From an uncultured Lachnospiraceae bacterium (lineage in GTDB: Bacteria; Bacillota; Clostridia; Eubacteriales; Anaerofustaceae): a stretch of DNA of 64,000 bases. The position numbers and the translations under genes were made by a program. Shown piece after piece: positions 1-786 of this stretch. Under the pieces are notes generated by a model. That model was given only the letters and a program-made list of their open reading frames with translations. It ran no database searches and was not told where the DNA came from. Position 1 is the stretch's first letter. Each line of letters opens with the position of its first letter. The DNA lies in the NCBI GenBank assembly GCA_944381375.1, contig CALWKX010000022.1, forward strand, positions 1 to 64,000, written 5' to 3'.

Positions 1-108
1 TCCCCCGATAAAATATTGTTCGCTCCCTGATACGCGGCTTATAAATGGTCAGGATCACAAATATTGTTCGCTCCCCGATATGCGGCTTACAAATGTTCGG
101 GATTCAAA
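1..108 (+). ncRNA. Type III antitoxin RNA repeats (ToxI/CptI/TenpI-like), cut by window edge
   Basis: Two tandem 48-nt repeats (13-60 and 61-108) agree at 40 of 48 positions, and a degenerate partial copy precedes them at 1-12. Each repeat holds a short complementary pair: CCTGA with TCAGG in copy 1 and CCCGA with TCGGG in copy 2. The central T-A pair has changed to C-G on both sides, which supports a folded RNA. A strong terminator and then a ToxN-like gene follow directly. Repeats, terminator and toxin in this order is the known layout of type III toxin-antitoxin loci, in which the repeats are cut into inhibitory RNA pseudoknots. More repeats may lie upstream of the window. Confidence 0.72.
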
Positions 109-113
109 TGTTT

Positions 114-147
114 GTGACGCCCTGTCGAAAGGCAGGGCGTCACTTTT
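114..147 (+). terminator. Intrinsic terminator between antitoxin repeats and toxin gene
   Basis: A perfect 11-bp stem (GTGACGCCCTG with CAGGGCGTCAC) has an 8-nt loop and is followed by TTTT. In type III systems such a leaky terminator keeps antitoxin RNA in excess over toxin mRNA. Confidence 0.85.
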
Positions 148-165
148 GTATAGGAGGACACCTTG

Positions 166-786
166 ATGCCACGGGCGCAGCTCTATTTTCTATCTAACGA
201 GTATTATCAGGACTTCCCGGATGACAAATTGATGCAGAACAAAGATACCATTGACGGCGTTCCACACAGCCGTCCGTGCTTCTTTGCGTTTTCGGATGCA
301 CGGATACCCGAAATTTACTGGATCGTTCCCATTTCATCCAAATACGAGAAATATAAGCGCATCGAACAGGATAAAATCAAGAAGTATGGTCGATGCAATA
401 CCATACGCTTCGGCACGGTTCTTGGCAGAAACACGGCATTCCTGATTCAGAATATGTGTCCGGCAACCGAAAAATATCTCACTCCATACATAGACAAGAA
501 CAAGCAGCCCATTCAGATTGATGGCCGTGTGGCAGCTGATGTAGAGAAAAACGCCCGCAGTGTACTGGCTTTGGCTAAACGTGGGGCAAAAGTGATTTTC
601 CCGGACGTATTCACGATTTTCAAAGGTTTGGAACAGCAGCTCCAACAGGCAGAGGCAGAACACTCATCCTTGTCGGCAGGGCTGGACAAGCCGAGTGTTC
701 CGGCTCAGCTACACCGCCCGACAGAGCGGACAGAATATCCGGCCAAGCATCGCACCAGCCCCGACAAGGATATGAATGGGCGTTAA
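166..786 (+). CDS. Type III toxin-antitoxin system endoribonuclease toxin (ToxN/CptN/TenpN-like)
   Basis: A 206-residue protein. ATG at 166 is preferred over TTG at 163 because AGGAGG lies at 151-156. The segment PISSKYEKYKRI (about residues 55-66) resembles the active-site stretch of ToxN, in which Thr, Ser and Lys cleave RNA. It is followed by a FGTVLGRNTAFLIQNM core and a basic ALAKRGAKVIFPDV stretch. The last 45 residues are a polar, probably disordered tail beyond the usual ToxN length of about 170. The family call rests on these motifs together with the upstream repeats and terminator. ToxN-type proteins cut mRNA when the antitoxin is lost and often act in phage abortive infection. The exact subfamily is uncertain. 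Confidence 0.72.
   Translation: MPRAQLYFLSNEYYQDFPDDKLMQNKDTIDGVPHSRPCFFAFSDARIPEIYWIVPISSKYEKYKRIEQDKIKKYGRCNTIRFGTVLGRNTAFLIQNMCPATEKYLTPYIDKNKQPIQIDGRVAADVEKNARSVLALAKRGAKVIFPDVFTIFKGLEQQLQQAEAEHSSLSAGLDKPSVPAQLHRPTERTEYPAKHRTSPDKDMNGR

Follow-up and report, generated by a model that had tools for sequence, protein, structure and literature searches.

A CptIN locus at the contig start

The first 786 bases of the window (the whole stretch of 64,000 nucleotides analyzed here) contain a type III toxin-antitoxin locus, which we assign to the CptIN family with a probability of about 0.96. On the basis of comparison with relatives we regard its family, repeat number and active site as settled, and the locus is probably an ordinary, functional CptIN member. 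Two RNA repeats are followed by an intrinsic terminator and a toxin gene (Table 1), and this order, together with the family match of the toxin, supports the type III assignment made in an earlier sequence-only reading. The family and fold of the toxin, the gene order, the repeat number in relatives and the covariation of the antitoxin pseudoknot are direct observations on this locus. It is a new example of an already described system, clear and nearly complete.

Table 1. Features of the CptIN locus in window coordinates
Feature	Position	Strand	Basis
Leader 3' end (3' part of the leader hairpin in relatives)	1-10	+	TCCCCCGATAAAATATTG, identical in L012
CptI-like antitoxin repeat 1, H-type pseudoknot	11-58	+	Repeat search, alignment with relatives and CptI_Er, pair counts
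Repeat 1, stem S1 (UCGC/GCGG)	20-23/34-37		
Repeat 1, stem S2 (CCUGA/UCAGG)	26-30/49-53		
CptI-like antitoxin repeat 2	59-106	+	Repeat search, alignment, pair counts
Repeat 2, stem S1 (UCGC/GCGG)	68-71/82-85		
Repeat 2, stem S2 (CCCGA/UCGGG)	74-78/97-101		
AAATGTTT, partial third repeat start	106-113	+	AAAT element recurrence
Intrinsic terminator, antitoxin/toxin boundary	114-143	+	Terminator scan, RNA folding
cptN toxin gene, 206 aa	166-786	+	NF047359, 4RMO, Foldseek, alignment

The first base of the window is also the first base of its contig (C22), so the promoter lies off the contig. The locus is present as a single copy in the assembly (38 contigs, 1.54 Mb), a search of which found no second one. 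In the related locus L012, TCCCCCGATAAAATATTG is preceded by TTGACA-17-TATAAT, a 12/12 match to the promoter consensus, and by GGGGAATG, and window bases 1-18 agree exactly with the last leader bases and the beginning of the first repeat in L012. This identity, together with the two-repeat arrays of relatives, shows that the array is complete at two repeats and not truncated. Judged from this alignment, base 1 falls within the leader, and only the promoter and the initial part of the leader are missing. The two 48-nt repeats were described as identical at 40 of 48 positions, and we find the same (spacing 48, 8/48 positions differing). An AAAT element precedes each of the two repeats and also follows the second, in relatives as well as here, and the last copy, within AAATGTTT, is probably a downstream processing site, where cleavage would be expected. 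The terminator has a 13-pair stem with a GAAA loop, in which 11 Watson-Crick pairs are uninterrupted, as the sequence-only reading had stated, and its predicted fold is stable (-27.4 kcal/mol, z -7.0). The toxin gene starts with ATG and has its own ribosome-binding site, AGGAGG, upstream of its 206 codons.

Assignment of the toxin to the CptN family

The toxin was matched by the NCBIfam model NF047359, 'CptIN family toxin', with 189 bits against a cut-off of 90 (E 3.6e-56) over 148 of the 150 model positions, and its sequence also matched the CptN structure 4RMO (phmmer, E=4.6e-18). This was further supported by structure prediction: for a model based on an alignment of 24 sequences (mean pLDDT 81, >90 in most of the core), Foldseek returned 4RMO as the best match (E=8.8e-12), followed by MazF and CcdB. 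The toxin had been called ToxN-like, with a match to an unrelated protein family named as one outcome that would overturn the assignment; instead it belongs to the CptN family and reaches twice the cut-off of a curated CptIN equivalog. Within NCBIfam only the CptIN model was matched at E<=10, in a library that may lack a TenpN model. Scans of the protein with Pfam and PADLOC gave nothing useful and miss this CptIN locus.

A ToxIN-family (ToxN/AbiQ-like) locus would share the type III layout and the broad toxin fold, since ToxIN of Pectobacterium and B. thuringiensis and AbiQ have the same layout and a distant MazF-like fold. However, Pfam gave no ToxN family for the toxin even at E<=10, as against 3.6e-56 for the CptIN model, and the toxin sequence matched no ToxN structure. 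The ToxIN systems also differ in having a Thr-Ser-Lys site and a heterohexamer, and their ToxI repeat unit is 34-36 nt (PMC5086642) and that of the window locus 48 nt. A ToxIN identity, which we give next to no probability, is refuted by the negative Pfam result and the matches to 4RMO and NF047359.

The conserved core of the toxin comprises residues 1-157, and in the alignment the reading frame is intact and keeps all invariant core residues. The putative active site is S57-S58-K59, as PISSK aligns with P-L-S51-S52-R53 of CptN, whose active site is given as [Ser]-[Ser/Thr]-[Arg] (PMC4627078), and among 24 relatives S57 is invariant and S58 nearly so. PISSK, which the sequence-only reading had set against the Thr-Ser-Lys of ToxN, is the ordinary CptN site. 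In one relative (L036, 5001-5480) PFSHD replaces the conserved P-S-S-K/R site while two covarying repeats are retained, and its toxin is perhaps inactive or altered.

The window locus agrees with CptIN of Eubacterium rectale (4RMO, PMC4627078) in gene order, in having two repeats and a terminator, and in the fold and Ser-Ser-basic site of the toxin; its H-type pseudoknot is built from the corresponding two stems, and L2 likewise ends in AUAAAUGG. The toxins are about 27-30% identical, with Lys in the triad here and Arg in E. rectale, and the repeats differ in length (48 vs. 45 nt) and in S1 (UCGC/GCGG vs. CCAC/GUGG). The window toxin also has a 50-residue C-terminal tail, unlike E. rectale CptN. 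This variable tail (residues 158-206), already pointed out from the sequence, extends about 50 residues beyond the NF047359 model; it is predicted to start as the end of a helix (148-171) and then to be poorly ordered, with residues 176-191 at pLDDT <50. Most relatives have no tail, and what the window tail has in common with L014, L017, L038 and L051 is limited to a basic end and a short motif of the KPS[VI] type. A link of the motif KPS[VI]xAxL to other mobile-element proteins was not supported, as the corresponding DNA pattern gave 22 scattered matches in 101 genomes vs. 20 for the reversed pattern; the motif was seen in some CptN tails only.

Covariation supports the CptI pseudoknot

Against the 45-nt CptI RNA of the crystal structure, whose sequence we took from the published primers (PMC4627078), both repeats align in register. 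The H-type pseudoknot stems of this RNA map to UCGC/GCGG and CC[UC]GA/UC[AG]GG, and all 9 stem pairs are kept in both repeats. The sequence-only reading had noted a covarying change from CCTGA/TCAGG to CCCGA/TCGGG; in repeat numbering this is T18-A41 to C18-G41, within the S2 stem. Taken from the two window repeats alone the covariation is weak evidence, since random placements gave at least one compensatory change in 9% of cases, and in 2.5% if all pairs also had to be kept. Across 36 distinct related repeats, CptI_Er included, the evidence is very strong: 96.5% of cells are standard pairs, compared to 24-42% in controls where the partners were slid by 1-3 columns, and 8 of the 9 stem pairs have changes on both sides, compared to a mean of 2.6 in shuffles. 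The change in the window is therefore truly compensatory. It is not a local event, as it recurs in most close relatives, which have U-A in the first repeat and C-G in the second; L024 has the reverse order, and in L012, L013, L022, L026, L029 and L031 both repeats are of the same stem type. Beyond the single crystal structure, the CptI pseudoknot is strongly supported by comparison across the homologue set.

All 36 repeats have A29, which CptI_Er needs for its activity (PMC4627078). Position 30, at the kink, is U in 28/36 repeats and C in repeat 2 of the window; deletion of U30 abolishes CptI_Er activity. The folding energy of a single repeat was no better than that of shuffled sequences, in a program that cannot model pseudoknots. 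This would fit repeats and gene being unrelated neighbors, with the repeats arising by chance or representing another non-coding RNA, but repeats and toxin occur together in about 40 loci and the covariation fits the pseudoknot of the CptI crystal structure. These two findings refute such a chance association, which is hardly credible. A scan with Rfam found no antitoxin family; the best match, a Brucella sRNA far below the cut-off, corresponds to the terminator on the opposite strand.

Repeat number and toxin integrity in relatives

We obtained 44 relatives by scanning species genomes and eight more from 149 whole genomes, with some loci overlapping; about 40 homologous loci share the layout. 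Where upstream sequence is available it reads TTGACA-TATAAT, short leader hairpin, two repeats, terminator and toxin. The clostridial CptIN-like loci (L012-L037, L038-L050), most of them from gut MAGs, have a promoter ahead of the leader and toxins up to 90% identical. They resemble the window locus in leader, two repeats and terminator, and most of the close ones also in the difference between first and second repeat. They differ from it in that the tail is mostly absent and some are one-repeat pseudogenes.

Only one repeat is present in L030, L032, L035, L037 and L053, and each of these five loci has a toxin disrupted by deletion, frameshift or truncation. In contrast, among comparable two-repeat loci the toxin is intact in 19/20 and broken in 1/20 (Fisher p = 1.1e-4 with near-duplicates removed, for relatives that are not phylogenetically independent). 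Repeats may collapse in MAG assemblies, but collapse would not break the toxin. In L030, L032 and L037 the lone repeat combines the first and second types into a hybrid of the sort expected from inter-repeat recombination. One over-expressed repeat has been reported to be sufficient (PMC4627078), and repeat number thereby becomes a question of dose. Tentatively, and with the odds clearly against it, one may propose that CptIN in nature needs two repeats per transcript although one suffices when over-expressed, that the repeats are kept distinct in one stem pair against mispairing or recombination, and that recombination produces single-repeat arrays only once the toxin is dead. That repeat number goes with toxin integrity is a minor but testable observation on antitoxin dose; we consider the broken toxins of all five single-repeat relatives mildly new, as is TnpV near this locus and five relatives.

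The closest relative, L011 (90% identical toxin, Gemmiger MAG), has an in-frame stop at codon 7 and a frameshift in the tail, which indicates partial decay of the local family. The 3' part of a group II intron in L011 (L011:1-89, RF00029, E=6.8e-6, just below the gathering score) stops at base 74, immediately upstream of the toxin ribosome-binding site and at the position of the terminator end in relatives. Class C introns insert downstream of terminators.

The window locus could itself be a decayed CptIN remnant, an open but inactive toxin left as a relic in an old mobile-element scar. The pseudogene and adjoining intron of this nearest relative point that way, as do six other broken relatives and a truncated DUF6809 copy just downstream of the window locus. 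Yet its reading frame and invariant core residues are intact, all 9 pairs are kept in both repeats, and terminator and ribosome-binding site are undamaged, which makes decay improbable. Counting against a functional CptIN locus are the absence of the promoter from the window, C30 in repeat 2, the L011 pseudogene and the unremarkable folding energy of single repeats.

Proposed mechanism and genomic setting

Processing, toxicity, neutralization and quaternary structure are inferred from E. rectale CptIN. By this analogy, a strong promoter off the contig would drive transcription of the leader and the pair of CptI repeats, with only a minority of transcripts passing the terminator into cptN. CptN would act as an endoribonuclease of MazF/CcdB-like fold that cuts the precursor near the AAAT elements, and the released pseudoknots would keep it inactive as in the CptIN heterotetramer. 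Element loss or host shut-off would end transcription of the short-lived RNA, whereupon free CptN would cut cellular RNA and growth would stop.

Two genes on the opposite strand, one for DUF6809 and one for TnpV (PF14198, 150 bits), are located 1.2-1.8 kb downstream, and TnpV is found near cptN also in L011, L024, L027, L038 and L051. Distant relatives (24-46% identity) are carried on five plasmids; no relative was found in phage records. CptIN_Er stabilizes plasmids and gave no phage resistance among >200 coliphages (PMC4627078). Because of the TnpV neighbor, the plasmid relatives and the plasmid stabilization without phage resistance, maintenance of the host mobile element is better supported than defense; it is the likely benefit, and phage defense is possible.

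The truncated DUF6809 copy and the full copy, which adjoins TnpV, are 89% identical over 146 bp (887-1035 and 1973-2119), and between them is a carbon-nitrogen hydrolase gene (1078-1845, - strand) that may have arrived by insertion or duplication. In L029 (from 5001) the CptN frame continues without a stop into a 675-aa frame, the later part of which we take to resemble uroporphyrinogen-III methyltransferase/synthase; this is either a true fusion or an artefact that arose through insertion into the start of that gene.
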